NCBI RefSeq assembly: GCF_028368935.1
Contig: NZ_JAQNDK010000003.1
Coordinates: 930,001-994,000, forward strand
Origin: Sorangium aterium
Lineage (GTDB): Bacteria > Myxococcota_A > Polyangia > Polyangiales > Polyangiaceae
Direction of reading: 5' to 3'
Length of the DNA stretch: 64,000 nt
Position numbers and translations under genes: made by a program. Positions within the stretch are counted from its first letter, which is position 1; each line of letters starts with the position of its first letter. The notes under the pieces are model-generated. The model worked only from the letters and a program-made list of their open reading frames with translations, was not told the DNA's origin and made no database searches. Below are positions 8,478 through 59,129 of this stretch, piece after piece.

Positions 8478-9443
8478 TCAGCCTCCGTCGAGCGGGAAGA
8501 GCTGCAGGTTCACGGCGACGACGCGCTCGGGCGGCCGCGATTCTGCGATCACCGCGCGCATGTTCTGGAAATAGCTCACGTGGAGCTCGGAGAGCTTCTC
8601 GAGATCGGCCGCGGAGACCGTGAAGACGTTGAACGAGAAGCGCCCCTCGGCCTTGCGCGTGAGCCGCGCCAGCCCGACGCCGGCCCAGAAGCACTTGAGC
8701 CGGTGCTCCGCGTCCGGATCCGGGCGCGTGTCCACCGTCCGGATCGGCGCGACGATCCACCGCCCGCGGCTCCTCCGGATCTGGCCGGCCTCCGCGAGCC
8801 GATCGAGGCAACGCGCCTCGTCCTCGACGGGGAACCCGAGCCGCCGCGCGATCCACCCCGGATCGTGGCGCGGCAGCGCCCGGTAGGCCGGCAGCTCCAG
8901 CGCGAGGAGGACGGCGGGGAGCAGCGGCTCCTCGTAAACGGCCCGGCGCTGGGCCTCGAGCGTGCGCCACGCCGCGCTCGCGGCCGGGAGCACCGCCGGG
9001 TCGGCGAAGAGCGCCACGAAATCGAGCAGGCGCAGCGAGCAGGCCTCGACCATCCGCAGGAAGTCCGGCAGCCGCGGCTCGGCCTCGCCCGAGAGCCAGC
9101 GCGCGACCGCGTAGCGGCTCCTGCCCGCGCGCCGCGCCACGTCGACGATGGGCGACATGGAGCGCATCTCCGAGAGGAGCGCCGCGACGCCCTCGGCCGA
9201 CGCCGGATCGGTGCGCGCGAGCCACGCGGGAAGCGACGGGAAGAAGCGCCTCACCGCCCCCGCGACGTCCACCCCCGCGCGCCGCGCGGCGACGAGGAAG
9301 GTGGCCGCGGTCGGCCAGCGCCTGCCGGACTCCCACGTGTAAACGACGTTGGTGCGGAAGCCGAGCCGGCGGCTGAAGGCCAGCTGCGAGCGCCGGCCGC
9401 GCAGGGCGCGGATCAGCTCCTTTGCAAGGGATTCATGGTCCAC
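8478..9443 (-). CDS. DUF4423 / TIGR02147-type HTH regulator
   Basis: A 321-residue protein with an N-terminal helix-turn-helix (SQLAFSRRLGFRTNVVYTWE) and a second HTH-like segment (VARRAGRSRYAVARWLSGEA). A long C-terminal domain follows (HDPGWIARRLGFPVEDEARC, VHVSYFQNM-like ELHVSYFQNMRAV, VVAVNLQLFPLD). This matches the DUF4423/TIGR02147 group, known mainly from myxobacteria, bdellovibrios and fibrobacters and of unknown function. The start ATG 9443 faces a divergent lipoprotein gene. A perfect 9-bp inverted repeat in the shared promoter region suggests that this protein controls itself and its neighbour, which is inference. Confidence 0.85.
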   Translation of the reverse strand: MDHESLAKELIRALRGRRSQLAFSRRLGFRTNVVYTWESGRRWPTAATFLVAARRAGVDVAGAVRRFFPSLPAWLARTDPASAEGVAALLSEMRSMSPIVDVARRAGRSRYAVARWLSGEAEPRLPDFLRMVEACSLRLLDFVALFADPAVLPAASAAWRTLEAQRRAVYEEPLLPAVLLALELPAYRALPRHDPGWIARRLGFPVEDEARCLDRLAEAGQIRRSRGRWIVAPIRTVDTRPDPDAEHRLKCFWAGVGLARLTRKAEGRFSFNVFTVSAADLEKLSELHVSYFQNMRAVIAESRPPERVVAVNLQLFPLDGG

Positions 9444-9453
9444 GTACCGCAGA

Positions 9454-9495
9454 TTCGCACATGTCGAGGCCAGTTTGCCCTATGGAATGTGCGAA
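9454..9495. promoter_or_regulatory. Paired 9-bp inverted repeat in divergent promoter
   Basis: TTCGCACAT (9454-9462) and ATGTGCGAA (9487-9495) are perfect inverses with centres 33 bp apart, about three helical turns. They lie between the divergent starts at 9443 and 9553, a position suited to an operator bound by a dimeric or tetrameric regulator. Confidence 0.55.
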
Positions 9496-9552
9496 GCTGA
9501 CCTGGCGTCGCGTCGATAACGAACGCAAGGTACGCCGCAGGAGGTCGTGAAC

Positions 9553-10245
9553 ATGCGCGAGCGGCGTTGGCTTTCTTGGGTGGTCGCGGTGGCGACGAGC
9601 GTCGGGCTCTTCGGGTGCGTCGATGGCGCGGGCGGCGCGCCGCAGGGCGGCCAGATCGGCGGAGTCCACGGCGCGGAGGGCGGGTGCGACGAGGAGAAGG
9701 AGGACATCGGCGCAGACGACGTCTCCCCGCTGGGCTTCTCGGCGCGAGCGGCGCTCACGGAGATCTCCGGAGAGCGCTCCGCCCCGCTCACGTGGGCGAA
9801 GGGCGGCAGCACGACGGCGACCGTCTCTGTCGGCGAGCTCATCGCCGCGCGCTTCGTGCGATCGACGGTGGCAGAGGGCGGCGATTCGAGCGGCGCCGAG
9901 CCGGCGCTCGCATTGGATTGCTCGGATCACCTGCAGCTCGACGTCCCGCTGGCCTTCTCGACCGAGGACGGCGCGTTCGACGAGTCGTTCGCTGTCACGC
10001 TCAGGGTCCCGCGGGTCGACGCTGCCAGCTTCTTTTACAAGATCGATCTCTCCGCGCTCCAGGGCTCGTACGAGGTCACCGAGGTCGATCCCGCGGAGTT
10101 CAAGGCGGTCACCGTGTACCTGAGCGGCGCGCTGAGCAGCGGCGCGGTCTCCGGCACGATCAGCGGGATCGCCGAGAGCCACCCGACCGGGAGCGGGCCG
10201 GACGGGTCGGTCTCCGCGCGGCAGTTCGGCGTGGCGCAGTTCTGA
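9553..10245 (+). CDS. Hypothetical lipoprotein
   Basis: A 230-residue protein I do not recognise. The N-terminus is a lipoprotein signal with lipobox LFGC (Cys22), so it is probably anchored in a membrane. The mature part is rich in Ser, Thr and acidic residues with alternating hydrophobics (FSTEDGAFDESFAVTLRVPR, VTVYLSGALSSGAVSGTISG), suggesting a beta-sandwich. ATG 9553 follows GCAGGAGG at 8 nt spacing; a GTG at 9547 overlaps that site. It is divergent from the DUF4423 regulator and followed by an inverted repeat at 10256-10271. Confidence 0.75.
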   Translation: MRERRWLSWVVAVATSVGLFGCVDGAGGAPQGGQIGGVHGAEGGCDEEKEDIGADDVSPLGFSARAALTEISGERSAPLTWAKGGSTTATVSVGELIAARFVRSTVAEGGDSSGAEPALALDCSDHLQLDVPLAFSTEDGAFDESFAVTLRVPRVDAASFFYKIDLSALQGSYEVTEVDPAEFKAVTVYLSGALSSGAVSGTISGIAESHPTGSGPDGSVSARQFGVAQF

Positions 10246-10255
10246 GCGCGGAGCC

Positions 10256-10271
10256 GCTGTCGCGCGACAGC
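10256..10271. terminator. 16-bp palindrome GCTGTCGCGCGACAGC
   Basis: A perfect palindrome 10 bp after the stop of the lipoprotein gene and upstream of the converging gene that ends at 10330. It could form a tight hairpin in both transcripts. No T-run follows. Confidence 0.4.
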
Positions 10272-10329
10272 CCTCTTCAGCGGAGCATCGCTGTCCAGGG
10301 CGATGCGCGCCGGGCGCGGCCCCGGCTCG

Positions 10330-12000
10330 CTACTGCGGCCCGTTCGCCGCCGCTGCCTTCGCGGAGGCGATGTAACGCTTGACGCCGTAGATGGCGAGCG
10401 CCGCGCTGGCGCCGAGGATCTCGACGCCGCCATGGCCGCTCAGCGTGAGATCCAGCCCACGGTCGCTCGGCGCGAGCGCGACCGAGACCAGCGTCGGCGA
10501 TGCGGCGAGCGCGCCGAAGCTCGCCGCCACAGGGCCGTCGAGCAGGCCCGCGAACGCCTGACGGTCGATGTACAGCTGCAAATGCGAGGCGCCCTTCGCG
10601 CGCGCCCGGGCCTCGGCGAACGACGGGGTCGCGGCCAGCGATTCCTTGTCCTTCCCGAAGCGCGCGGCGACCTGAGCGAGGTAGCCCCGGTCGCCCGCGC
10701 CGATCAGGACGAACCCGGGCCGGGTCTCTGCCCTCAGCTCGTTGCCGTCATCGAGATCGTGCGCCAGCGACCCAGGCTTGGACCTGAGCTTCTTCGTCGT
10801 CCGCTTCATGTGCGCGGCGACCGCGCCGAACACCTTCTTTTGCGCCGCCTCATCCGCGGTCGCCAGCGCGATCAGCACGGCGCCGTGCCTGAGCGCCTCG
10901 GCGCGCCCGCCGGCTGCGAGGCTGAGCTTGTGCTTCGGATCGCGATAGATCCCGACCGCGGCCTCGCCGCCGAGCGCCCTGTCGACATCGCCGAGCTCGA
11001 GCCCTACCTCGGCGAGCGCGGCCGCAGCCGCCGCCGCGGTGGGCTCGCCGGCGAGCCCGTCGAAGGCGCCGAGGACGTCGCTCACCGTCTTTCCCGGCGA
11101 CCGCTGAAGGGACAGCCCGAACGTCGCCAGCGCCCCCTGGGGCAGCTTCGCCATGGCCGCATGGTCCGTCGCCGACAGCACCGCGCCGAGCGCGGGGACT
11201 TCCGGTCCGAAGAGCGCGAGCTCCACGTGGAGCCCGGTCGCATCCTGGCTCATGGGAAGGGCGATGAAGAGCCGCGAGCCGGGCTCGGGGCCGCTGCCTT
11301 GCAGCCGGTGGAGGTCGATCGCGAGCCATGGATCCTTCGCGCGCCCGGGCTGGAAGAGCGCGGATGTCTTGAACGACGGCTCGCGCTGCCCCGCGACGCG
11401 CAGGGCCCTCGATAACGGCTCCGGCCGGGCGCATACGAGGGCGACCCGCGCCTCGGCGAGCCACGCGCCGTGGGCGACCACGCTGTCCTCGTCGTCTCGG
11501 AGCGCGAACCTGCCCTCGCCGGCCTCGCGCGGCAGCTCCTTCAGCAGCCGCTCGACCGGGGCTCCGTCGCGGAATCGCGCCGCTATGCAGCCGTTCTCGA
11601 CGATCGCCCCCAGCGATTCGCGCGGAGCTGCCTCGCCCCCGACGAACGCCGCGGCGCCGTCGAACGACGCCATCAGATCTCGGGCGAGGTCGGGGCTCAG
11701 GCCGGGCTGGCGCGCCAGGGCCGCCGTGACCTCCTCGAGGAACGTCTCCCGGATAAGGGGCGCAGCGCCGGCGAGGAGCGCGCCGGCCTGCGGGACGCTC
11801 ACGACCAGCACCGCATCGCCGGGAATGACGTCGACGAGCGACTCCACGCTTCGCGGCATCGCGGGGGCGGAAGGCGGCGCGGTCCCCGCGAGCGCCGGGG
11901 CCGCGGCCGAGCGCGGCGGCGCCGGCGCGGGGGGCCCTCCGCAGGACGCGAGCGCGACCAGCCCGGCCACGGCGAGGAGTCTGGGAAAGGCGCGGCGCAT
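10330..12000 (-). CDS. Hypothetical lipoprotein, 556 residues
   Basis: The signal peptide ends in the lipobox LASC (Cys20). An Ala/Pro-rich spacer follows, then a long domain with repeated hydrophobic strands and helices (VIPGDAVLVVSVPQAGALL, LMASFDGAAAFVGGEAAP, GFVLIGAGDRGYLAQVAARF). A region near the C-terminus, EILGASAALAIYGVKRYIAS, could be a membrane-active helix. The pattern recalls large uncharacterised myxobacterial lipoproteins, some similar to DUF3352; I cannot assign a function. AGGAG lies about 12 nt before ATG 12000. An in-frame ATG at 12021 would add 7 residues but has no ribosome site. It is downstream of the NADAR gene in the same direction with a 167-bp gap. Confidence 0.75.
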   Translation of the reverse strand: MRRAFPRLLAVAGLVALASCGGPPAPAPPRSAAAPALAGTAPPSAPAMPRSVESLVDVIPGDAVLVVSVPQAGALLAGAAPLIRETFLEEVTAALARQPGLSPDLARDLMASFDGAAAFVGGEAAPRESLGAIVENGCIAARFRDGAPVERLLKELPREAGEGRFALRDDEDSVVAHGAWLAEARVALVCARPEPLSRALRVAGQREPSFKTSALFQPGRAKDPWLAIDLHRLQGSGPEPGSRLFIALPMSQDATGLHVELALFGPEVPALGAVLSATDHAAMAKLPQGALATFGLSLQRSPGKTVSDVLGAFDGLAGEPTAAAAAAALAEVGLELGDVDRALGGEAAVGIYRDPKHKLSLAAGGRAEALRHGAVLIALATADEAAQKKVFGAVAAHMKRTTKKLRSKPGSLAHDLDDGNELRAETRPGFVLIGAGDRGYLAQVAARFGKDKESLAATPSFAEARARAKGASHLQLYIDRQAFAGLLDGPVAASFGALAASPTLVSVALAPSDRGLDLTLSGHGGVEILGASAALAIYGVKRYIASAKAAAANGPQ

Positions 12001-43421: not shown

Positions 43422-43611
43422 GACGAGTGCCTCCTTCGATAGCGCTCTTGACAGGCGCCGGCGGCGAAGGTTCCGGGGCGGGAGAGGGGTTCCTTCGAAG
43501 CGCCCCGGCCACGCCATCCACGCTTGAGCCGCGGAAAGCGCTGTGGTCCGTCGCTGACCCGAGAGGCTCGCAGCTTGCATGGGCGCGGGCTTCGACTATA
43601 GCCTCGGGCTG

Positions 43612-45411
43612 ATGAGCGGCCCCGAGAGCTCGCCGTTGACGACGCAGACCTTCGATCTGCGGCAGTCCCCGGACAGCCCGGGAATCTACTCCTACCTCCT
43701 CGTCATCGGCGCTTCCTCATCGTACAGGCGCGCCCTGCCCGACGACGGCGTGCTCGTCGTGGGGCGCAGCGACGAGGCCGACGTGAGGCTCGACACCGCG
43801 GCGGTCTCCCGGCGGCACGCCGAGCTCGTCTTCTCCAGAGGCGAGATCCGGATCACCGATCTCGGCAGCCACAATGGGACGCTCGTCAACGGCGAGCGCA
43901 TCGAGGGCTCGTGCGCGCTCGGCTCCGGCGATGTCATCACCATGGGCGATACAACGCTGATCCTCCGGCGCGAGGCGCCGCCCCGGGGCAGCGCCCTCAT
44001 CGAGATGGGCCGGCTGCGCCGGCGCGTGGAGGAGGAGATCGAGCGCGCCGCCGACTCGGCGCGGCCGTTCGGCCTGGCGGTGGTGTCCCTCGGGTCCGTG
44101 CAGATGCGCACGATGCTCGCGCATCGGGCGCTCTCGGCGCTCCGGCTCGTGGACATCGTCGCCTGGGACGGCGCCTCTCACCTGGCGATCGGGTTTCCCG
44201 AGCTCGGCGGAGAGGCGGCGCGCGCCGCGGTGCTCCAGGTGCTCGAGGCGATCGCGCCGCTGGCCCCCGAGGCGCGGGGCGGACTGGCCTCCTACCCGTT
44301 CGACGGCGGCGACACCGAGACGCTCCTCGCCGGCGCGCGGACCGCCGCGTCGATCGCGGCTCCGGGGGCGATCGCCTTCGCCTCGCAGACCGCCGTCCGG
44401 CACGTCATCGGCGATCGCACCATCGTGGTGGCCGACTCGGCCATGATCCGGCTGTTCGAGCTGATCCGGCGCCTCGCGGCGAGCGATCTGCCGGTCCTCG
44501 TCCTCGGCGAGACGGGGGCGGGCAAGGAGAACGCCGCCGCGGCCGTGCACCACTGGTCTGCGCGGGCGCAGAAGACGCTGATCACGCTCAACTGCGCCGC
44601 GCTCCCGGACGCGCTGGTGGAGAGCGAGCTCTTCGGCTACGAGAAGGGCGCGTTCTCGGAGGCGCGGGCGCCCAAGCCCGGCCTGCTGGAGCGAGCGCAC
44701 GGCGGCACCGTCTTCCTCGACGAGATCGGCGAGCTGCCCCTCGGCGCGCAGGCCAAGCTGCTCCGCGCGCTCGAGGCGAAGCGGATCACCCGCCTCGGCG
44801 ACGTCCGCGATCGCGAGGTGGACATCCGCATCGTCGCTGCCACGAACCGCGATCTCGAGGCCGAGGTCCACGCGGGCCGCTTCCGTCAAGACCTGCTCTT
44901 CCGCCTGAGCGCCGCCGTCGTCGAGCTGCCCCCGCTCCGGCACAGGCGGCGTGAGCTGCCGATCCTGGCCCGTCTGTTCCTCGCCGAGGCGTGCGCTCGG
45001 ACCGGGCGGCCTGCGCTCGAGCTCTCGGAAGCCGCGCTCGCCGCGCTCTTCGCTCACCCGTTCCCTGGCAACGTGCGCGAGCTCAAGAACGCGATGGAGT
45101 ACGCGGCCGCCACGGCGGACGGCCCGGCGCTCGAGCCCTGGGGGCTGCCCGAGCGCATCGCCGGGCTCGATGTCCCGCCGCGGACCACGGTGGACAACAC
45201 CTCGGCCCCGCCCGCCGCGGCGCCCGCCCGCTTCAAGCCCATCGCCGAGGAGCTCCGGGAAATCGAGCGCACGCGCATGCGTCAGGCGCTCGACGCCGCG
45301 GACGGGGTCCAGAAGCGGGCGGCGGCGCTCCTCGGGATGCCTGTTCGCACCTTCACCTTCAAGCTCAAGCAATTCGGTATCTCGGCGCGGGAGGGGAAGC
45401 GGAGCGCGTGA
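43612..45411 (+). CDS. FHA-AAA+-Fis regulator with degenerate GAFTGA loop
   Basis: About 600 residues. An N-terminal FHA domain (VVGRSDEADVRLDTAAVSRR to SHNGTLVNGERI) binds phosphothreonine. A central sensory stretch is followed by the AAA+ domain: Walker A GETGAGKE, Walker B TVFLDEIGEL, arginine-finger region FRQDLLFRLSAAVVELPPLR and NVRELKNAMEYA. A C-terminal Fis HTH follows (QKRAAALLGMPVRTFTFKLK). The sigma54-contacting loop, normally GAFTGA, reads GAFSEA (44647-44664), so contact with sigma54 is doubtful. ATG 43612 or 43579 could start it; neither has a clear site. Such FHA regulators are partners of Ser/Thr kinases, which are abundant here. Confidence 0.9.
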   Translation: MSGPESSPLTTQTFDLRQSPDSPGIYSYLLVIGASSSYRRALPDDGVLVVGRSDEADVRLDTAAVSRRHAELVFSRGEIRITDLGSHNGTLVNGERIEGSCALGSGDVITMGDTTLILRREAPPRGSALIEMGRLRRRVEEEIERAADSARPFGLAVVSLGSVQMRTMLAHRALSALRLVDIVAWDGASHLAIGFPELGGEAARAAVLQVLEAIAPLAPEARGGLASYPFDGGDTETLLAGARTAASIAAPGAIAFASQTAVRHVIGDRTIVVADSAMIRLFELIRRLAASDLPVLVLGETGAGKENAAAAVHHWSARAQKTLITLNCAALPDALVESELFGYEKGAFSEARAPKPGLLERAHGGTVFLDEIGELPLGAQAKLLRALEAKRITRLGDVRDREVDIRIVAATNRDLEAEVHAGRFRQDLLFRLSAAVVELPPLRHRRRELPILARLFLAEACARTGRPALELSEAALAALFAHPFPGNVRELKNAMEYAAATADGPALEPWGLPERIAGLDVPPRTTVDNTSAPPAAAPARFKPIAEELREIERTRMRQALDAADGVQKRAAALLGMPVRTFTFKLKQFGISAREGKRSA

Positions 45412-46718: not shown

Positions 46719-47807
46719 TCAGAACGCGAGCCAGGTCGACACCATCGCAGCGTCGGGCGCCGCGGCGGGCCGGATCTCGACCTTCACGCCACCTCGGTCC
46801 TCGGTGCGGTACATCTGTGGCCTGTTCATGAAGAGCATGGCCGTCGCCGTGATCACCGTTGCTCCGCCGGCGAGGAGGGAGCCGGCAGCCAGCCAGCTCT
46901 CGTTGACGCTGGCGTCGTACTGGAAGCCGGGGGACGGAGGGCACGACCGACCGCACTCGCGCACGCTCCGCTCCTGGGCGTAGCCATGAAGGTCGTCGGC
47001 CTGCCACATCAACCGGCCACCCATGACGGCGACGGCCGCCCCGGCCCCGAGCGTGGCCCAGGGGAGCCAGGCGGGCCAGCGCTGCCTGGCGACGACGGTA
47101 TCGGCGCTCAGGGCGAGCTGGCCGGAGGCCTCTTTGCCGGCGACCATGAAGATGGGCTTGGCGACGGTGAAGTAGCCGTCCTTTCTCGCTGTGAGGACAT
47201 GCTCTCCGGGCGTGACCATCTGGCGCCGGGCGCCGGGTCCGACGAACCAGGGCTTGCCATCCATCAGCACGGTGGCCCCCGGCTCGTCGCAGCGGATCTC
47301 GATGGCGGCGAGCTCCTCCTCCAGGAGCGCCCGCAGCGCCGTGCGCGCCTCCTGCTCCTTCTCGGCGTCGAGCGAGCCAGGCCCCCATCGCAGGGAGAGG
47401 CGCAGGTTATCATAGGCCAGCACCGGCAGGCCGATGCTCCTCAACACCCGCCCGAGATAGAGCCGGAGCTCGGGGTGCTCCCACAAAGCCAGCGCCTCTT
47501 CGTACTTGGCCCGCGCCTCGGCGAACATCATGCGCCGGTGAAAATTCCGGGCCTCCTCGAAGAGCGCGCGGGCCATCTGCTTTCGATCCTCGGAGATGCC
47601 CTGATGCCATGGGGGCACCGACGATGCCGGGGGCGGCGGCGACTCCGCTGTCGCTGGAGGATGCGGCGATGAGGACGATGACGGCGGCGGCGCCTGGGCG
47701 AGCGCAGGCGTAGCGCAGAGGGCCAGGAGGGTGATGGGCAGGAGGAGCTTCGCCGACGGAAGGGAGACGTGGACAGGTCGTCTACGGGTCGTCGCCATGA
47801 AAGCCAA
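46719..47807 (-). CDS. TPR/PEGA-domain membrane protein, module unit A
   Basis: A 362-residue exported protein. A signal peptide (LLPITLLALCATPALAQ) and a Pro/Ser-rich spacer are followed by a helical TPR-like region (ARALFEEARNFHRRMMFAEA to LPVLAYDNLRLSL). A PEGA domain comes next (IEIRCDEPGATVLMDGKPWF to SGQLAL), then two membrane segments (WLPWATLGAGAAVAVMGG and WLAAGSLLAGGATVITATAM). The start is TTG 47807: GGAGGAG lies 8 nt before it and the paralogue at 53571 has the same TTG, ribosome site and following codons. The ATG three codons later is too far from that site. It is divergent from the kinase gene. PEGA proteins act at the cell surface. Confidence 0.88.
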   Translation of the reverse strand: MAFMATTRRRPVHVSLPSAKLLLPITLLALCATPALAQAPPPSSSSSPHPPATAESPPPPASSVPPWHQGISEDRKQMARALFEEARNFHRRMMFAEARAKYEEALALWEHPELRLYLGRVLRSIGLPVLAYDNLRLSLRWGPGSLDAEKEQEARTALRALLEEELAAIEIRCDEPGATVLMDGKPWFVGPGARRQMVTPGEHVLTARKDGYFTVAKPIFMVAGKEASGQLALSADTVVARQRWPAWLPWATLGAGAAVAVMGGRLMWQADDLHGYAQERSVRECGRSCPPSPGFQYDASVNESWLAAGSLLAGGATVITATAMLFMNRPQMYRTEDRGGVKVEIRPAAAPDAAMVSTWLAF

Positions 47808-48038
47808 TCGCTCTCCTCCGGCTCGCCCGTCATGCCACATCGTGCGTTCGCCCCGCTCGCCGGGCCGATGAGCAAGCTCCGCGCTCCAGGATATGCCCGC
47901 GCATGTCCTGTGTGAAGCGCTCTGGCGGCGGGTCTGTGTGTACACGGCTGCGCTGGGCGCCTATGCTCTCGTCATCGCGCCAGCCGCCGCGGAGGCGACG
48001 ATTTTGATGGACATGTCTTTTTACAGGCAGGAGTGGCG

Positions 48039-51000
48039 GTGCCCACCGAGCTGATCACCCTGGAGTCGGTCCGTCGATCCTCCGGCGCGGCGCCGCTCGA
48101 GCGTGAAGGGCGCTCTGGCATCAGCACCGAGAGCCTCGTGGACGTGGCCGACTCCGGCGCGGCGCTCGTGGGCAGGGGGCTCCCGCGGGCCGCGCTCGCC
48201 GCCGCCGGGGCGACGGTCAGTGTCGTGCCGGCCGGCGTTCATGGGGCGAGGCGCGACGCGGTGAGCGACGCGAGCGCTCCGCCGTCCTCGTCGATTCCGC
48301 GAGCCGATCCGCCCATGGCCGGCACCCGCATCGGCCACTACGAGCTCTTGCGCGAGCTCGGCCGGGGCGGCATGGGCGTGGTCTTCCTCGCGCGCGACCT
48401 CCGGCTCGCTCGCCTCGTCGCGATCAAGCTCCTCACGAGGCTCAGCAGGAGCGGTCTACAGCGCTTCCTGATCGAGGCGCAGGCGACCGCGCGCTGCAAG
48501 CACGAGCACATCGTGACGATCCATGAGGTGAACGAGCACGATGGATACCCGTACATGGTGCTCGAGTACATCGAGGGGCAGAGCCTCCGCGCCTGGATGA
48601 GGCAGCGCAGGCCCGCGGACGCCGGCGAAGGGGTGTCGACGGCGCCGGTGCCGCCCGGCCTGGCGGTCGACATGATGGTCCCCGTCCTGCGCGCGCTCTC
48701 GCGAGCGCACGTGTCCGGCATCATCCACCGTGACCTCAAACCCGAGAACATCATGCTGGAGGCGTCGGGGGCGATCAAGGTGGTCGATTTCGGCATCGCG
48801 GAGCTGCGCGACGACGAGGCGAGCCTCGCGGTCGAGCGCGAGGCCGCCGAGCACAAGAATACGCGGCTCACCGGCGAAGGAGCGGTCATCGGAACGATGC
48901 CTTATATGTCCCCCGAGCAGTGGAGGGGGACGGACATCGATCAAGCCAGCGATATCTGGGCGGTCGGCATCATGCTCCACGAGCTCGTGATCGGCTCGCA
49001 CCCGCTCGCGCCCGTCAACCCGGGGAGGCTCTTGGGCGTGACGCTCCTCGATGAGCCCATGCCCCAGGTCAGCGCGCGCCACCCGGAGCTCGGCGCGCTC
49101 GGCGCGATCATCGATCGCTGCCTGTGCAAGCGGAAATCCGAGCGGTTCGCCTCCGCGCAGGAGCTCTTGACCGAGCTCTTGCCGCTGCTGCCCGGGCGCC
49201 GTGAGATCCTCCTCGGCGCCGACGAGAGCCCGTTCGCGGGGCTCTCCTCGTTCCAGGAGGCCGACGCCGACCGCTTCTTCGGCCGCGCGCAGGACCTCGC
49301 GGGCGTGGCGGCGCGGCTCCGGAACCAGCCGCTGCTCGCGATCGCCGGGGCGTCGGGCGTGGGGAAGTCATCGCTCGTGAGGGCGGGGGTGATCCCTGCG
49401 CTCAAGCGCTCCGGCGAGGGCTGGGAAGCGCTCGTCGTGCGGCCCGGGCGTGAGCCGATGGCAGCGCTCGCGGATCTGTCCAGCCATGCCGCCGCGACGC
49501 TGGGCGCAGCTCCGCCGACGCCCGTTCCGGAGGGCGCCGCGGCGGCGGGCTCGGCCTTGGCCCCGTGGCTGCGCGCCGAGCCCGGCCTCCTGGGCGCGTG
49601 GCTGCGCGCGTGGTCGGACCGCGCGCAGAGGCGCCTCGTGCTGTTCATCGATCAGTTCGAGGAGCTCTTCACGCTCGGCGCCCCGGCCGTCGAGCGCGCG
49701 GCGTTCCTCGCGTGCCTCGCGGGGGTCGCCGACGACGCCTCGTCACGGCTCCGGGTGGTCCTGGCGGTGCGAGCCGATTTCCTCGAGCGGATGGCCGAGC
49801 ACGAGCATTTCATGGCGGCGATGATCCGCGGCCTCGTGTTCCTCCGGCCGATGGGGCGCGAGGGGCTGCGCGAAGCCTTGATGAGGCCGATCGAGGCGGC
49901 GCGGCACGAGATCGACGATCCCGCGATGATCGAGGGCATCCTCGACGCGCTGGCGACGACGCGCGGCGCGCTGCCGCTGCTGCAGTTCACCGCGGCCCGG
50001 CTGTGGGAGATGCGCGATCGGGGGCGCAAGCTGCTCACGCGGGCGAGCTACGAGGCGCTCGGGGGCGTGGCGGGCGCGCTGGCGAGCCACGCCGATACGG
50101 TGCTGGCCGGGATGAGCGAGCGCCGGGCGAAGCTCGCGCGGGCGGTGCTGGAGCGGCTGGTGACGCCGGAGCGGACGCGGGCGGTGGCGAGCCTGGGCGA
50201 GCTCTGCGAGCTGCCCGGGGATCGAGGCGAGATCGAGCGGGTGGTGGAGCTGCTCGCCGAGGCGCGGCTCCTGGCGATCGAGACGGGGAGCGACCGCGCG
50301 GGCAGCACGGTGGAGATCGTGCACGAGTCGCTGATCGAGCGGTGGCCGACGCTCCGGCGCTGGCTCGACGAGAACCAGGAAGACGCCGCGTTCCTGGACC
50401 GGCTGCGCGCGGCGGCGAGGCTCTGGGACGCGAGCGGCCGCGCCGCGGACACGCTCTGGCGCGGCAAGGTCGCCGAGGAGGCGCGCGGCTTTCGCGGGCG
50501 CTACCGCGGGGAGCTGCCGGAGCGGGAGAGGCTCTATCTGGAGGAGGTGCTCCGCTTCGCCGATCAGCAGCAACGCGGGAGGCGCCGCCTCGCGTCCGGG
50601 ATCATCGCGGCGCTGTCGCTGCTGGCCTTCGCCGCGGGGGGCGGATACGTGAAGGTGACCCGCCAGTACCAGGTGATCATGAAACAGTTCGAGGAGATCC
50701 GGACCGCGGAGCTCACCTTGAAGGAGGCGCTCGCGCGCGAGGAGGCGGCCCGGAGCGCGGCGGAGAGGGCGCGACAGGAGAGCGAGGCGGCGCGGCAGGA
50801 CAGCGAGGCGCAGCGGCGGCGGGCCGAGCGGCTGCAGCGCGACGCCGAGGAGGCCCGGGACCGGGCGGAGGCAGAGGCCGAGAGGGCCCGCGTCGCGGCC
50901 AACCAGGCGCGGATGGCGCGGGGGGAGACGCAGAAGGCCGAGGCCGAGGCGCGAAAGGCCGAGGTCAAGGCCACCGAGGAGGAGCAGAAGACCAGGGCCG

Positions 51001-51083
51001 TCGAGGCGGAGCTGCGGAGCAAGAGCGAGCTGGAGCTGCTCATCGAGCGCGCCGTGGGGAAGATCGACGCGACGTTGAAGTAG
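48039..51083 (+). CDS. Ser/Thr protein kinase-nSTAND protein, module unit A
   Basis: About 1014 residues. The kinase domain begins at ~101 (glycine loop [11 protein letters not shown], Lys130 in [14 protein letters not shown] 230-237, DFG 250-252, [10 protein letters not shown]) and looks active. From ~397 follows an nSTAND NTPase with Walker A GASGVGKSS (437-445) and Walker B LVLFIDQFEEL. A winged-helix-like region, one membrane helix (~850-868, GIIAALSLLAFAAGGGYV) and ~140 residues of charged coiled coil end the protein. GTG 48039 follows GGAG at 6 nt; GTG 48033 overlaps it. Many relatives carry WD40 repeats after the coiled coil; this one stops there, and a propeller protein is encoded by the converging gene 7 bp away. 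Confidence 0.92.
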   Translation: MPTELITLESVRRSSGAAPLEREGRSGISTESLVDVADSGAALVGRGLPRAALAAAGATVSVVPAGVHGARRDAVSDASAPPSSSIPRADPPMAGTRIGHYELLRELGRGGMGVVFLARDLRLARLVAIKLLTRLSRSGLQRFLIEAQATARCKHEHIVTIHEVNEHDGYPYMVLEYIEGQSLRAWMRQRRPADAGEGVSTAPVPPGLAVDMMVPVLRALSRAHVSGIIHRDLKPENIMLEASGAIKVVDFGIAELRDDEASLAVEREAAEHKNTRLTGEGAVIGTMPYMSPEQWRGTDIDQASDIWAVGIMLHELVIGSHPLAPVNPGRLLGVTLLDEPMPQVSARHPELGALGAIIDRCLCKRKSERFASAQELLTELLPLLPGRREILLGADESPFAGLSSFQEADADRFFGRAQDLAGVAARLRNQPLLAIAGASGVGKSSLVRAGVIPALKRSGEGWEALVVRPGREPMAALADLSSHAAATLGAAPPTPVPEGAAAAGSALAPWLRAEPGLLGAWLRAWSDRAQRRLVLFIDQFEELFTLGAPAVERAAFLACLAGVADDASSRLRVVLAVRADFLERMAEHEHFMAAMIRGLVFLRPMGREGLREALMRPIEAARHEIDDPAMIEGILDALATTRGALPLLQFTAARLWEMRDRGRKLLTRASYEALGGVAGALASHADTVLAGMSERRAKLARAVLERLVTPERTRAVASLGELCELPGDRGEIERVVELLAEARLLAIETGSDRAGSTVEIVHESLIERWPTLRRWLDENQEDAAFLDRLRAAARLWDASGRAADTLWRGKVAEEARGFRGRYRGELPERERLYLEEVLRFADQQQRGRRRLASGIIAALSLLAFAAGGGYVKVTRQYQVIMKQFEEIRTAELTLKEALAREEAARSAAERARQESEAARQDSEAQRRRAERLQRDAEEARDRAEAEAERARVAANQARMARGETQKAEAEARKAEVKATEEEQKTRAVEAELRSKSELELLIERAVGKIDATLK

Positions 51084-51090
51084 CCTGTCG

Positions 51091-52215
51091 CTACCACGGT
51101 GACACGGAGACGCTCTCGGAGATGGCCACGCCGTTGTCGCCGACGATATGGAATTTCAGGGCGTCGCCCCAGATGGCATTGAGCGAAGCGTCCGCTGGGA
51201 GGCGGCGACTCCAGCCGAGGCTGTCGTGCCGCAAGAGCATGCCATCGTCTCCGACGACGTAGACGACATATTGGCTAAGGTCCCACCTGGTCCCCCATAC
51301 GAAATTCAACGTTTTCTGTGCTGTCGGCGCCGATGTGATGGCCGTCCAGCCTGTGCCGTCGAAGTGCAGGATGGTGCCGCCCTCGCCGACGACAAATACG
51401 TCCTGCGGCCCGCTCCCCCATACGGAATTCAATGATTTTGGCGGGATTGACTCGTGGTTCACGGCTTCCCAGCGCTCGCCCTCGAAGTGCAGGATGGTGC
51501 CGTTTTCGCCGACGGCGAATATGTCTTGCGGCCCGCTTCCCCACACGGCGTTCAATGATGCTCGCGGAGCCGACTCGTGTGTCGTGGCCTTCCACTGCCC
51601 GTCTTTGAAGCGCAGGATGGTGCCTTCGTCGCCGACGGCGAGCACGTCTCGCGGCCCGTTTCCCCACACTGAATTCAATGTTATTTGTGGGATCGACTCG
51701 TGTTTTATGATTTCCCAGCGTTCGCCGTCGAAGTGAAGGATGGTGCCTTCTTCGCCCACCACGAACACGTCTTTGGGCCCGCTCCCCCACACGGCGTTCA
51801 GCGAATTCCGTGGGATCGATCCGAGCGGTATGAATTTCCAGTTGCTGCCGTCGTAGTGGAGGATCGTGCCCCCCTTGCCAACGGCGAATATGTTGTTTGG
51901 CCCGCTCCCCCACACGCTCTTCAGGTCTTCCTGTAAGCAGGTATTGCCGTCTGGCGTAAGCGGGACGTCGCAGCGCTTGCCCGTGGCTCGCGCAAAGCAC
52001 GTCGGGTTGCCTTCGCGGTCGGGGTCGCACACATAGCCGGCCGGGCAGAAGCTCGCGCCGCACGCGGCTCCGGTGTCGAAGCACGCGCCGAGGGTGGTCA
52101 TCGGCGCGATCGCGGACGCCAGCGCAGCCGCGTAGCAAAGCGCTCTGCCGCCGTGCCGGCGACCCGCGGCGTCCTCGTTCCGCTCGACGCCCCATCTCCG
52201 GATGAATGCGCGCAT
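51091..52215 (-). CDS. VWGSGP-repeat beta-propeller lipoprotein (7 repeats), module unit A
   Basis: A 374-residue lipoprotein (Cys45 in TLGAC). A short Cys-rich segment (CGASFCPAGYVCDPDREGNP) is followed by seven ~40-residue repeats of the form VWGSGP..DVFAVG..GTILH.DG..W, fitting one seven-bladed propeller. The last two repeats are degenerate. The N-terminal region (RRWGV..AAGRRHGG) matches that of the larger paralogue at 59129. ATG 52215 was chosen over 52251 by that alignment. Its stop is 7 bp from the kinase stop. It is probably a surface-exposed sensor or binding protein of this unit. Confidence 0.87.
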   Translation of the reverse strand: MRAFIRRWGVERNEDAAGRRHGGRALCYAAALASAIAPMTTLGACFDTGAACGASFCPAGYVCDPDREGNPTCFARATGKRCDVPLTPDGNTCLQEDLKSVWGSGPNNIFAVGKGGTILHYDGSNWKFIPLGSIPRNSLNAVWGSGPKDVFVVGEEGTILHFDGERWEIIKHESIPQITLNSVWGNGPRDVLAVGDEGTILRFKDGQWKATTHESAPRASLNAVWGSGPQDIFAVGENGTILHFEGERWEAVNHESIPPKSLNSVWGSGPQDVFVVGEGGTILHFDGTGWTAITSAPTAQKTLNFVWGTRWDLSQYVVYVVGDDGMLLRHDSLGWSRRLPADASLNAIWGDALKFHIVGDNGVAISESVSVSPW

Positions 52216-52292
52216 CCTCTGCTCGTCCCTCAGCTCGTCGTACCAACCCACCGTTCGCCCAGGTCGCCGCGGCGCGCCGGGCGCCTGCGGCG

Positions 52293-52309
52293 CGAGCGTA
52301 CGGCGGGGC
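52293..52309 (-). promoter_or_regulatory. 17-bp motif upstream of propeller gene A
   Basis: CGAGCGTACGGCGGGGC (plus-strand reading) is identical to 59180-59196 upstream of propeller gene B. It lies 78 bp before the start, while the surrounding spacer is not conserved. Confidence 0.55.
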
Positions 52310-52389
52310 GCCTCCTCTTGGGAAGGCCCCGCGCCGGGTCTCCGGTCCCGGAGGGAAGGCCGGGGCGAGGCACCGTCCGGCGGCGCGTC

Positions 52390-53571
52390 TCAGAGCACGA
52401 AGCGGGCCCACAGCATCGCAGCGTCGAGCGACGCGGCGGGGAGGATCTCGAGCTTCACGCCGCCGCGATCGTCGGTGCGGTACGATTGTGGCCTGTTCAT
52501 GAGGAGCAGGACCGTGCCTGTGATCGCGCTCGCTCCGCCGGCGATGAGGGCGCCGATCGCGAGCCGGTCCTCGAGGACGCTGCCCTCGTACTCGTCGCCG
52601 GCGGATGGCATGCACGACGGCGTGCAGCTGGTCTGGAAGCGCTTATCCGCCTCGTCGTGAGCTGCTCCAGCGTGCCATTTCAGCAGGGCACCGGCCGAGC
52701 CCAGGGCGGCGCCGGCCCCGAGCGTGGCCCAGGGGATCCATGCGGGCCACCTCTGGCTGGTGACGACGGTATCGGGGCTCAACGCGAGCTGGCCCGAAAC
52801 CTCTTTGCCGGCGAGCACGACGACGGGCTTGACGACCGTGAAGTAACCCGTCTTTCTCGCCGTGACGACGTGCTCTCCCGGCGTCACGATCCGGCGCCGG
52901 GTGCCGGGGCCGACGAACCAGGGCTTGCCGTCGACCAGCAGGGCGGCGCCCGGCTCGTCGCAGCGAACCTCGATGACCGCGAGCTCGTGCTCCACGAGCG
53001 CGCGCATCGCCGCGCGCGCCTCCTGCTCCGCCTCGGGATCGAGCGCCCCCGGACCCCATTGCAGCGACATGCGCAGGTTCTCATAGGCCAGCAGCGGCAG
53101 ACCGATGCTCGCGAGCGCCCGCCCCAGGTAGAGACGGAGTTCGGGGTGCTCCCAGGAAGCCAGCGCCTGTTCGTACTTCGCCCGCGCTTCCGCGAGCATC
53201 ATGCGCCGGTGCAGCTCCCGCGCCTCCTCGAACAGCGCCTGGGCCTTCTGCTTCCGATCCTCGGAGACTCCCCGGTGCCATGGTGGCGGCGCTGACGGCT
53301 CCGCCGCTGGCGAAGGCGCTGGCGCCGGCGGCGATGGGGGCAACTCCGCCGTTGGCGGCGCTGGAGCGCTCGGCGGCGGCGCTGACGACTCCACCGTTGG
53401 CGGCGCTGACGACTCCGCCGTTGGCGGCGCTGACGACTCCGCCGTTGGCGGCGCTGCCTGCGCTCCCGCAGGCGAGGCGTACAGGGCCACGAGAGCGATG
53501 GGCACGAGGCGCTTCACACAGGAGAGGCCGACCTGAGCGGGTCGCTTGCGGGTCGTCGTGATGACAGCCAA
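52390..53571 (-). CDS. TPR/PEGA-domain membrane protein, module unit B
   Basis: A 393-residue paralogue of the protein at 46719. It has the same order: signal peptide (IALVALYASPAGAQ), a long Pro/Ala spacer, helical TPR-like region (AQALFEEARELHRRMMLAEA), PEGA domain (IEVRCDEPGAALLVDGKPWF), and two membrane segments. TTG 53571 is the start, after GGAGGAGAGGCAC, matching the first copy. The spacer is longer because of three 24-bp tandem repeats (PPTAESSA units). It is divergent from the second kinase gene. Confidence 0.88.
   Translation of the reverse strand: MAVITTTRKRPAQVGLSCVKRLVPIALVALYASPAGAQAAPPTAESSAPPTAESSAPPTVESSAPPPSAPAPPTAELPPSPPAPAPSPAAEPSAPPPWHRGVSEDRKQKAQALFEEARELHRRMMLAEARAKYEQALASWEHPELRLYLGRALASIGLPLLAYENLRMSLQWGPGALDPEAEQEARAAMRALVEHELAVIEVRCDEPGAALLVDGKPWFVGPGTRRRIVTPGEHVVTARKTGYFTVVKPVVVLAGKEVSGQLALSPDTVVTSQRWPAWIPWATLGAGAALGSAGALLKWHAGAAHDEADKRFQTSCTPSCMPSAGDEYEGSVLEDRLAIGALIAGGASAITGTVLLLMNRPQSYRTDDRGGVKLEILPAASLDAAMLWARFVL
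53381..53452 (-). repeat. Three 24-bp tandem repeats in PEGA gene B
   Basis: In-frame units at 53381, 53405 and 53429 encode PPTAESSA/PPTVESSA in the Pro/Ala spacer. The first differs by one base. The copy number probably varies. Confidence 0.85.
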
Positions 53572-53824
53572 GTGCCTCTCCTCCGGAGCGCCGCGGAACC
53601 TCGAGCGCGCGCTGGCCGCCCTGGGCGCGACGAGCAGACGTCGTGGTTCAGGCTACACCCGTGCTGGTCCTCCTGTGAAGTGGCCGGGGCCAGGGGTGCT
53701 GTTGGAACTACCCGGGGCGCCCGGCGGCCACGAGGAGGTCGCGGTGCAGGGGGCGGGCCGGAGCCGCGGCGCGCAAACGCTGTGCTGGTGAACTCGGACA
53801 CGGCTATGCTTTCACGGCGGTGCG

Positions 53825-56806
<2,982 letters not shown>

Positions 56807-56834
56807 CGGGCGCGCCGCGGGCGAGGCTGCGCTG

Positions 56835-59129
56835 CTACCGCGCTGGCGGCGGACCGATGTGACGGTAGATCGCGGCGTCCTGGCCGACGACGAAGGAGAT
56901 CCGGCCCTGGCCCCACACGGCGTCGAGCGTGGAGTTCGTCGTGGAGTTGAGCGTCAGCCAGGAGATGCCGTCGTAGCGCAAGAGCGCGCCGCCCGTGCCG
57001 ACCGCGAAGACATCGGTCGGCCCGCTCCCCCACACGCCGTAGAGCGATGCCAGCGTCGGCGCTTCCATCCTGCGCCAGCTCTCGCCGTCGTAGTGCAAGA
57101 TCGCGCTCTCCAGCCCGACGGCGAAGACATCGGTCGGCCCGCTTCCCCAGACGGCCTGGAGATATTCCCCTGAGTCCGAGTGCGTCACCTGCCAGCTCTC
57201 GCCGTCGTAGTGCGCGATCGTGCCCTCGTCACCGATGGCGAAGACATCGTCTGGCCCGCTCCCCCAGACGGCATTGAGGTATTCCCCTGAGTCCAGGAGC
57301 GTCGCCTGCCAGCTGTCACCATCGTAGTGCGCGATCGTGCCGGCCTGACCGACGGCGAAGACATCGTCCGGACCGCTCCCCCACACGCCATCGAGATAAT
57401 CCAGGGTGCCCGAATCCATCGTCTGCCATCTCTGGCCATCGTAGCGCAGGATGGTGCCGGCCTGGCCGACGGCGAAGGCATCGTCCGGTCCGCTCGCCCA
57501 GACGCCGCCGAGACGAGCCGACGTCGGCGAATCCATCGTCCGCCAGACCTGGCCATCGTGGTGCAGGATCGCGCCGGCCTGGGCGCCGGCCTGACCGACG
57601 GCGAAGACGTCGTCCGGACTGCTGCCCCACACGGCGTGCAGCTCCAGCTCGTCCGGCACCGGTGATTCCATCTTCTGCCAGCTCTGGCCGTCGTGGCGCG
57701 CGATCGTACCGAGCTGACCGACGGCAAAGACGTCGTCCGGACCGCTGCCCCACACGCCGATGAAGTCGGCCGTCGTTTGCGCATCGAGCTGGTGCCAGCG
57801 CTGGCCGTCGTAGTGGACGATCGTGCCGGCATCACCGACGGCGAAGACATCGCCCGGTCCGCTGCCCCAGACGCCAGCCAAGGAGAGCTCGGCCGACAGG
57901 TGGTGTTCCATCTCGTGCCAGCTCTCGCCGTCGTAATGCAGGATGACGCCTGCCAGGCCGACAGCAAAGACGTCGTCCGGTCCGCTTCCCCACACGCCGA
58001 GCAAGCTGGTCGTCGTCGGTGAATCCATCTCGTGCCAGCTCTCGCCGTCGTAGTGCATGATGGCGCCTGCCAGGCCGACAGCAAAGACGTCATCCGGTCC
58101 GCTCCCCCACACGCGACGCCAGTTCGCTGAGATCTCCGCATCGATCTTGTGCCAGCTCTGGCCGTCGTAGCGGACGATCGCGCCGTTGTCACCGACGGCA
58201 ACGACATCGTTCGATTCGCTCCCCCACACGCAGAAGAGATTCTCCCCTGTTGGCGAGTCCATCATCTGCCAGCTCTGGCCATCGTAGTGCAGGATCGTGC
58301 CGTCCTGACCGGCGACGAAGACGTCATCCGGTCCAGTACCCCATATGCCAAAGACAAATTCTGTCGTCGGCGAGTCCATCATCTGCCAGCTCTGGCCGTC
58401 GTAGTGCGCGGTCGTGTTTCCCAGGACGGCGAACACGTCCTCCTTCCCGCTCCCCCACACGCTCATGAAGGACAACACCGTGCCGATGGATTCGAACCGC
58501 CAGTTCCAGTCGCCGCATGGAGCTGTGGAGAGAGCGTCGCAGGTGCTCGTGCACCCGGGGCGACCGAAATCATAGCGCAGGTTCACGCAGGAGCCGGCGA
58601 CCGGCGCGCCGGTGTCGCACTGCTCGTGCTCTGCGACCGCGCCGTCGCCGCAATGTGCCTTGCAGTCCTTCCGGCAATAACCGTCGGAATCCGCGTTCTG
58701 TCGACCGCGACATCGAGCGTCCGTGGGACCGAACTCGCCAGCGCCGCAGTCGCACTCTTCCTCGCGTATCGTATCGACGATACCGTTGCCGCAGCGCTCG
58801 TCGGAGCTGCAGTCGAAGCTGCACCCGTCGCCGCTCTCGCCGTTGCCGTCATCGCAGGCCTCGCCGTCCTCGACGACGCGGTTGCCGCAGGTATTGACCT
58901 CGGTCGGGACGATGCATGCCGGGTTGCCGTCCCTGTCCACGGCGCATGTATGGCCGATCGGGCACGAGCCCTCGCCGCAGCGGAGCCCTCCTTCGAGGCA
59001 CGCGCCGGCGACGGCGAGCAGCGCCGTCACGAAGGCCATCGCCGTCGCAGTGTGAAGCGCGCCGCCCCGCCGGCGGCCCGCGGCGCTCCTGCTCGATTTC
59101 ACGCCCGATCTCCGCGTCAATGCGTGCAT
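56835..59129 (-). CDS. VWGSGP-repeat beta-propeller lipoprotein (14 repeats), module unit B
   Basis: A 764-residue lipoprotein (Cys44 in AGAC). After a Cys-rich opening (CGEGSCPIGHTCAVDRDGNP) come Myxococcus-type Cys-rich repeats (CGNRVVEDGEACDDGNGESG, CGNGIVDTIREEECDCGAG). Fourteen ~40-residue repeats follow, VWGSGPDDVFAVGxxGTIxHYDGxSW, exactly twice the count in unit A and fitting two seven-bladed propellers. Neighbouring repeats are nearly identical at the DNA level, so the array grew by internal duplication. ATG 59129 has GAGGGG just upstream and aligns with the first copy. It is secreted and probably surface-exposed. Confidence 0.88.
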   Translation of the reverse strand: MHALTRRSGVKSSRSAAGRRRGGALHTATAMAFVTALLAVAGACLEGGLRCGEGSCPIGHTCAVDRDGNPACIVPTEVNTCGNRVVEDGEACDDGNGESGDGCSFDCSSDERCGNGIVDTIREEECDCGAGEFGPTDARCRGRQNADSDGYCRKDCKAHCGDGAVAEHEQCDTGAPVAGSCVNLRYDFGRPGCTSTCDALSTAPCGDWNWRFESIGTVLSFMSVWGSGKEDVFAVLGNTTAHYDGQSWQMMDSPTTEFVFGIWGTGPDDVFVAGQDGTILHYDGQSWQMMDSPTGENLFCVWGSESNDVVAVGDNGAIVRYDGQSWHKIDAEISANWRRVWGSGPDDVFAVGLAGAIMHYDGESWHEMDSPTTTSLLGVWGSGPDDVFAVGLAGVILHYDGESWHEMEHHLSAELSLAGVWGSGPGDVFAVGDAGTIVHYDGQRWHQLDAQTTADFIGVWGSGPDDVFAVGQLGTIARHDGQSWQKMESPVPDELELHAVWGSSPDDVFAVGQAGAQAGAILHHDGQVWRTMDSPTSARLGGVWASGPDDAFAVGQAGTILRYDGQRWQTMDSGTLDYLDGVWGSGPDDVFAVGQAGTIAHYDGDSWQATLLDSGEYLNAVWGSGPDDVFAIGDEGTIAHYDGESWQVTHSDSGEYLQAVWGSGPTDVFAVGLESAILHYDGESWRRMEAPTLASLYGVWGSGPTDVFAVGTGGALLRYDGISWLTLNSTTNSTLDAVWGQGRISFVVGQDAAIYRHIGPPPAR

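Follow-up and report, generated by a model that had tools for sequence, protein, structure and literature searches.

What do three dissimilar genes do together when they occur twice, side by side, in one bacterial genome? The question is raised by a stretch of 64,000 nucleotides (hereafter, the window) from the 13.5 Mb genome of Sorangium aterium, positions 930,001 to 994,000 of contig NZ_JAQNDK010000003.1. Here, two units are arranged head to tail, each with a minus-strand gene for a membrane protein with tetratricopeptide repeats (TPR) and a PEGA-like domain, a plus-strand gene for a Ser/Thr kinase with Pkinase and nSTAND1 domains, a transmembrane helix and a tail, and a minus-strand gene for a lipoprotein with VWGSGP repeats. 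The units belong to a probable family of cell-surface signaling systems, in which a kinase and a PEGA protein are usually neighbors and an exported third protein appears to combine a shared anchor with a variable head. The genes, called with a gene caller trained on the window, are as follows.

46719..47798, minus strand: TPR/PEGA membrane protein of unit 1 (PEGA 1), 359 amino acids, its layout taken partly from the unit 2 model
48033..51083, plus strand: kinase of unit 1 (kinase 1), 1016 amino acids; Pkinase at 103-379, nSTAND1 at 400-805, one transmembrane helix after nSTAND1, 145-residue tail
51091..52251, minus strand: putative lipoprotein of unit 1 (lipoprotein 1), 386 amino acids; lipobox, Cys-rich anchor, seven VWG motifs, modeled Ycf48-like propeller
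52390..53571, minus strand: TPR/PEGA membrane protein of unit 2 (PEGA 2), 393 amino acids
53825..56806, plus strand: kinase of unit 2 (kinase 2), 993 amino acids; Pkinase at 88-356, nSTAND1 at 383-788, one transmembrane helix after nSTAND1, 135-residue tail
56835..59129, minus strand: putative lipoprotein of unit 2 (lipoprotein 2), 764 amino acids; lipobox, Cys-rich anchor plus myxobacterial Cys-rich repeats, 14 VWGSGP blades
43579..45411, plus strand: FHA-domain sigma-54 activator, 610 amino acids, convergent with PEGA 1

A sequence-only reading of the window had described the same three genes twice, in the same order and on the same strands, with narrow gaps between the convergent kinase and lipoprotein stop codons. 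All six genes were found as described, and the gaps are indeed 7 bp in unit 1 and 28 bp in unit 2. The co-occurrence search for which that reading had named scattered homologues as the contrary outcome was run within the genus and beyond it, and it did not give that outcome. All three genes stand together in seven units from five of the six Sorangium genomes (G000-G005): the two window units, L042, L044, L046, L053 and L049, the last rearranged, with propeller, kinase and PEGA genes all on the plus strand. In the sixth genome (L054), a PEGA gene and a kinase gene are cut by a contig end. Among propeller loci with E ≤ 1e-40, the module PEGA gene is adjacent or one gene off in 11 of 11, and a kinase is adjacent in seven. 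Five weaker propeller loci were left out of the 11; the two examined (L059 and L060) have no module PEGA. Incomplete arrangements also occur: L050 has kinase and PEGA without a propeller, L045 has a PEGA gene (8935-10548) beside a mere kinase fragment, and in L048 an nSTAND1 protein without a kinase domain adjoins PEGA and propeller. A separate scan of genome contigs for related loci returned two loci only.

Beyond the genus, the Sorangium PEGA profile was run against 192 genomes of the class (E ≤ 1e-12). The PEGA family is present in 47 of them, host included, 26 of these in a single family (f23), and its distribution is patchy. We analyzed 41 loci, namely 40 stretches, which cover 41 of the 88 non-window PEGA rows, and L039; the stretches were mostly those with the top PEGA scores, although several of these were passed over and some lower-scoring ones were included. 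With a Sorangium codon model, gene calling gave no PEGA in seven loci (L072, L075, L082, L084, L096, L097 and L099), and for this reason locus counts use stop-to-stop frames. An nSTAND1 kinase lies within 3 kb of the PEGA gene in 32 of the 41 loci; a match to an exported third gene comes within 5 kb of it in 33, and 25 loci have both. In 20 control stretches of 18 kb, taken from ten of these genomes, where matches were counted anywhere, there were 0 kinases, two third genes and 0 cases of both. The genes are codirectional, divergent or convergent, depending on the locus.

The linkage was also seen from the kinase side, where a module PEGA lies within 6 kb of 35 of 43 kinases. These 43, together with seven kinases classed by frame length as a WD40-type (two of them checked with Pfam), make up the best 50 of 84 kinase rows, and the PEGA list used here came from scoring part of the candidates in each genome. 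Of four loci in family f64, which belongs to another class of the phylum, two carry all three genes (L122 and L123), a third (L121) has PEGA, a third gene and a kinase without nSTAND, and L126, a weaker PEGA match, has neither kinase nor third gene. Kinase and PEGA tree distances are correlated (r 0.82, 41 pairs), as they are within one family rich in paralogues (r 0.81, 28 pairs), with 0 of 1000 shuffles as high in either case; this comparison was confined to the two window pairs and to loci with a single row each for kinase and PEGA, and the large trees were built by one fast method only. Of the linked three-gene set that the sequence-only reading proposed, the kinase-PEGA neighborhood thus stands, but the VWGSGP protein is not its constant third part.

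Both window kinases have a complete Pkinase domain with catalytic motifs (Pfam E values 4.5e-43 and 4.6e-42) and an nSTAND1 domain (E ~1e-111; 374 bits vs a cut-off of 27.1). Across the family, HRDxKxxN and DFG patterns occur in 51 of 51 kinases and a VAIK-type pattern in 44, while the Walker A pattern is present in all 51 and Walker B in 46. A single hydrophobic helix follows nSTAND1 in the window kinases, and after it comes a charged tail. The tail is 93–177 residues long in 46 of the 49 kinases in which the transmembrane helix is covered (including L073, which is cut by a contig end). In the other three, all from the host genome, it measures 710–725 residues, and in the two of these that were scanned (L057 and L058) Pfam recognizes 14 WD40 repeats. 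The Pkinase and nSTAND1 domains of L057 and L058 are 55–58% identical to those of module kinases and the transmembrane helix lies at the same place; they differ by the WD40 repeats and by having no module PEGA nearby. Indeed, none of the seven WD40-type kinase rows has a module-type PEGA within 6 kb. In a FastTree tree, the WD40-fused kinases are the sister group of the Sorangium module kinases. The kinase-nSTAND1 core thus exists in two forms, with the propeller either fused after the transmembrane helix or carried by a separate lipoprotein.

The second constant part is less readily assigned. By the Pfam rule, the window proteins are not PEGA members (14.6 and 13.8 bits vs a cut-off of 20.8). 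PEGA 1 has a signal peptide, a Pro-rich linker, TPR-like helices, a PEGA-like β domain and two C-terminal hydrophobic helices. An AlphaFold model of PEGA 2, built at low depth from three sequences (mean predicted local distance difference test [pLDDT] score 64), shows a signal helix and five TPR-like helices, together with a β domain and a pair of long helices at the C-terminus; its matches in the PDB are weak (E 0.01 and up), mostly to TPR proteins, with a carboxypeptidase D chain at the top. Because this predicted layout of TPR, β domain and two helices fits, the window proteins look like, and may work like, TPR-PEGA proteins while standing outside the Pfam family. A link between kinases and PEGA domains is visible elsewhere in the host genome, which has at least 151 kinase matches (150 of 358 candidates scored) and 42 Pfam PEGA genes. 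Five single frames encode a Ser/Thr kinase and PEGA together (G000 C1:1510577, C1:2621298, C2:1094738, C2:2030795 and C5:492034), which supports a working link between the two, and six further Pfam PEGA genes have one of the 150 listed kinases no more than 3 kb away. At least 11 of the 42 are therefore kinase-linked, where 500 random draws gave 3.2 on average and 11 at most. As a separate observation, Phe is the last residue in 10 of 13 aligned PEGA protein rows, after a short conserved stretch; this recalls the ends of outer-membrane proteins, yet here it stands beside two hydrophobic helices.

What, then, fills the third position? In the window, both third proteins are putative lipoproteins by signal sequence and lipobox Cys (LGAC in lipoprotein 1, AGAC in lipoprotein 2), followed by a Cys-rich anchor. 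Lipoprotein 1 has seven VWG motifs, counted as six blades by profile, and lipoprotein 2 has 14 blades after its Cys-rich region and repeats. The AlphaFold model of lipoprotein 1, likewise shallow, is a propeller (mean pLDDT 69.5) that resembles the YCF48 chain 5ojr_B (Foldseek E 7.8e-10, TM-scores 0.58/0.70). Pfam PSII_BNR scores 29.2 bits against a cut-off of 27, and the NCBIfam Ycf48 equivalog is far below its threshold (38 bits vs 326), so that lipoprotein 1 is modeled as a Ycf48/BNR-type propeller by fold only. The commonest propeller blade count in the genus is 14; a strict multiple of seven was rejected, with profile counts of 6 (seven by motif), 10, 13, 14, 15 and 17.

Beyond the genus, the third gene usually encodes a large exported protein, and the heads are diverse:

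Kelch propeller heads (Pfam): L068, L086, L088, L098
NHL propeller heads (Pfam): L080, L089
RCC1 propeller head (Pfam): L073
InlB-type repeat heads (Pfam): L062, L085, L087
VIT/VWA protein (Pfam): L067
DUF4215 repeats with no other strong domain (Pfam): L039, L069, L070, L077, L083, L091, L093, L094
DUF4215 with TIG (Pfam): L095
VWGSGP-type matches: clear in L096; weaker in L074, L078, L082, L137
Heads without a Pfam name beyond weak DUF4215: L064, L065, L084

The VWGSGP propeller, taken by the sequence-only reading as a member of the set, was rejected as a defining part, since the family occurs in 121 of the 192 class genomes, and Kelch, NHL, RCC1, InlB-type and DUF4215 heads stand in its place. 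What recurs across heads is a lipobox followed by a Cys-rich stretch: of the 62 module and kinase loci examined, 22 have it, at 25 places in all, and none of the 20 control stretches does. Used as a profile, this anchor gave 40 places, spread over 13 of 14 genomes; 24 of these places have a module gene within 6 kb (14 of the 19 at E ≤ 1e-8), a figure that is favorable because the profile was built from some of the same loci. By these patterns, what stays constant at the third position appears to be an exported protein whose anchor is shared and whose head varies.

The third gene is also the fastest-diverging part. In hand-picked pairs, identity falls in the order kinase > PEGA > third gene in all 15 measured for all three, and the kinase exceeds the third gene in 20 of 20. 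For L085/L087, the nonsynonymous divergence (Ka) is 0.024 for the kinase, 0.038 for PEGA and 0.241 for the third gene. Moreover, the L085 kinase is 87–92% identical to those of L077 and L092, with InlB-type repeats as its head where theirs are DUF4215 arrays. The same order holds between the window units: the kinases are 79% identical (Ka 0.135), the PEGA proteins 67% (Ka 0.23) and the lipoproteins 45% over about half of the longer protein (Ka 0.50). Along the kinase DNA, in 150-bp blocks, identity is ~50% in the first 300 aligned bases and 70–96% across most of the remainder, with ~600 bp of the nSTAND part at 98–98.7%, likely a gene-conversion tract. When the trees are split, kinase 1 falls with L044 and L050 in its earlier part (support 94) and with kinase 2 in its later part (support 99). 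A recent tandem duplication was rejected because of this gradient in identity and of the split trees; the units are best described, from their alignments, as old diverged paralogues with local gene conversion. What the sequence-only reading had called a tandem duplication is therefore a pair of neighboring paralogous units, but not a recent one.

Taken together, we find it reasonably probable that each unit is a transmembrane receptor kinase split into separate proteins, whose core is constant and whose lipoprotein head can be exchanged, and that it works in a way comparable to GlnH-GlnX-PknG. Gene linkage, domain content, the transmembrane helix and tail of conserved length, the kinase and P-loop motifs, the correlated kinase-PEGA distances, the anchor with its exchanged heads and the divergence of the third gene all support it, and the sensing role is suggested by topology and analogy. 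Basic residues precede the kinase transmembrane helix, which suggests that the catalytic and nSTAND1 domains are cytoplasmic and that the tail of ~145 residues lies outside; signal sequences suggest that the lipoprotein and the TPR/PEGA protein face the periplasm or surface. With the topology that we infer, a lipidated, Cys-rich N-terminus would anchor the exported lipoprotein, and the repeat head (a VWGSGP β-propeller in the window) would meet an extracytoplasmic ligand. On the periplasmic side, the TPR/PEGA protein, with its two C-terminal membrane helices, would pass on or hold the signal. Binding at the head would thus be conveyed by physical contact to PEGA and from there to the kinase tail, and the change in the tail would lead to ATP-dependent oligomerization of nSTAND1 and activation of the kinase, as STAND biology leads one to expect of nSTAND1 clustering.

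As for output, the neighboring FHA-sigma54 activator may read the phosphorylation in Sorangium. FHA domains bind phosphothreonine, which makes this activator a candidate reader. Its gene is convergent with the PEGA gene, 1.3 kb away in the window and 18–84 bp away in four other Sorangium genomes, and the sigma-54 part of the window protein is 93–96% identical to those PEGA-adjacent genes. At L049, another FHA-sigma54 gene adjoins the propeller gene. As a general fourth member the activator was rejected: elsewhere only scattered sigma-54 or FHA matches were seen (L047, L064, L068 and L071), and such a match occurs in one of the 20 controls. It is a candidate output gene, not a constant member.

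The nearest working analogue, in a likeness that is functional only, is found in mycobacteria. In GlnH-GlnX-PknG, three co-conserved genes encode a lipoprotein sensor, a transmembrane relay and a Ser/Thr kinase, and protein contacts were proposed as the route by which an outside ligand activates the kinase (PMC6069109). GlnH is there a solute-binding protein; the Sorangium set has a repeat head instead, and neither Pfam nor NCBIfam places either window lipoprotein in a solute-binding family. The Sorangium kinase, unlike PknG, spans the membrane and carries nSTAND1. PknG is soluble and bears TPR on the kinase itself. PASTA kinases of the PknB/Stk1 type have a kinase inside, a transmembrane helix and an envelope-facing domain. 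The Sorangium set resembles them, and the kinase-PEGA fusions, in this general plan, and differs in that its envelope-facing parts are separate genes; the window kinases fail as PASTA receptor kinases on NCBIfam NF033483, scoring 232 and 236 bits against 450, through the kinase domain only. STAND/nSTAND and iSTAND ternary conflict systems are likewise similar in setting a STAND-type NTPase beside a variable recognition part, and some iSTAND systems include transmembrane-borne PEGA domains (PMC7159879). In the available portions of the papers concerned (PMC8195603, PMC7159879, PMC10907252), these systems have MoxR-vWA cores, effector-associated domains or lectin-fold sensors diversified by diversity-generating retroelements, and a kinase-nSTAND1/PEGA/lipoprotein trio does not appear. 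The sequence-only reading knew of no described system with this composition, nor did our literature search bring one to light: full-text searches for the PEGA domain together with myxobacteria, and for DUF4215, gave no paper, with subscription literature mostly outside their reach.

Several observations weigh against the split-receptor reading. The 41 loci were picked mostly by PEGA score, which favors module-like genes, and even so nine have no kinase within 3 kb and eight have no recognized third gene, some of these at contig ends. In three PEGA-less kinase loci (L127-L129), no PEGA or third gene was found. Sixteen of the 40 anchor matches have no module gene within 6 kb, and seven anchor places away from modules (L130-L136) have no module kinase or PEGA. 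Within Sorangium, the PEGA gene is damaged in two of the seven trios: it is reduced to a C-terminal piece in L042 (6575-7135) and changes frame near its end in L044 (6517-7776). PEGA and propeller occur without a kinase at L041, L047 and L048 and in an extra pair at L046, and a lone kinase is found at five loci (L043, L051, L052, L055 and L056). Blade number is often, not always, 7 or 14, and the FHA-sigma54 neighbor is not general outside Sorangium. Lastly, most of the kinase can be aligned to one PADLOC candidate model, C3a189 (“kinase”), which leaves room for a role in defense.

Building on the split receptor, a broader proposal, which we regard as possible but doubtful, is that the set serves as a receptor platform of the Myxococcota, in which a conserved nSTAND1-kinase and TPR/PEGA core would be re-targeted in evolution by swapping scaffolds on a common lipoprotein anchor, for self/non-self or prey recognition among social predators; such whole-scaffold exchange can be likened to the varied ectodomains of animal and plant receptors. 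Among the alternatives to the split receptor, the one that survives best, unlikely as we hold it to be, is a membrane-bound, NLR/STAND-like conflict or recognition system, with a head that recognizes phage, prey or non-kin and an nSTAND1-kinase that acts as a death or alarm effector instead of sensing the environment. It would account for the rapid divergence of heads and their exchange over kinases that are 87–92% identical, for a third-gene Ka 10 times the kinase Ka in L085/L087, and for a copy number that varies, up to seven PEGA matches in one genome. The C3a189 alignment spans residues 107-982 in kinase 1 (E 2.6e-41) and 92-954 in kinase 2, and one paper names nSTAND1 in putative counter-invader systems (PMC8195603). 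Against it, Pfam and NCBIfam showed none of the six proteins to have a toxic effector domain (retroelements were not looked for), and the other PADLOC matches among those listed for the kinases (25 of 32 and 25 of 33 rows) are to kinase-domain models. The PEGA proteins and lipoproteins have no PADLOC match, and no system assignment was made.

Less likely still is an envelope-assembly or adhesion unit, in which the lipoproteins would be surface adhesins or structural proteins and the kinase and PEGA protein would govern how these are exported, anchored or turned over, instead of receiving input from them. InlB-type repeats, VIT/VWA and large Cys-rich proteins, all present among the third genes, are common in surface adhesion. 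PEGA has also been listed among peptidoglycan-associating domains (PMC7159879). However, the sister kinases of the host genome carry a propeller fused after the transmembrane helix, which points to the head as an input to the kinase. A neighborhood without joint function, produced by chance or by ancestry from one locus, is very improbable: kinase and PEGA genes are indeed numerous in the host genome and some linkage in the genus is plain synteny beside the same FHA-sigma54 gene, but the kinase is absent from all 20 control stretches, arrangements vary in orientation, full sets occur in another class and the kinase and PEGA trees are correlated.

To our knowledge, the activators of the hundreds of eukaryotic-like kinases of myxobacteria are largely unknown. 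If the units are split receptors, they supply a defined input part, an adaptor and a kinase that can be tested together. One signaling core with unrelated recognition scaffolds offers a natural series on how ligand specificity is exchanged, and the fused (WD40) and split (lipoprotein) forms of one kinase core in a single genome provide a built-in comparison.

Some further associations were noted around the three families. At L059:9110-13024 and L060:6046-9951 (G000 and G004), a distant VWGSGP-like lipoprotein, 33–34% identical, lies near a different kinase, perhaps as another kinase-propeller pair. In a sub-clade comprising L061, L079 and L088, a SnoaL-like protein, probably a lipoprotein, is encoded beside or downstream of PEGA, and in L088 enoyl-CoA hydratase and HMGL-like genes come next. 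Finally, the lone kinase of L052, L055 and L056, from three Sorangium genomes, adjoins genes of 399 and 486 amino acids, and its neighbors in L052 are a saccharopine-dehydrogenase-like protein and an amidase.

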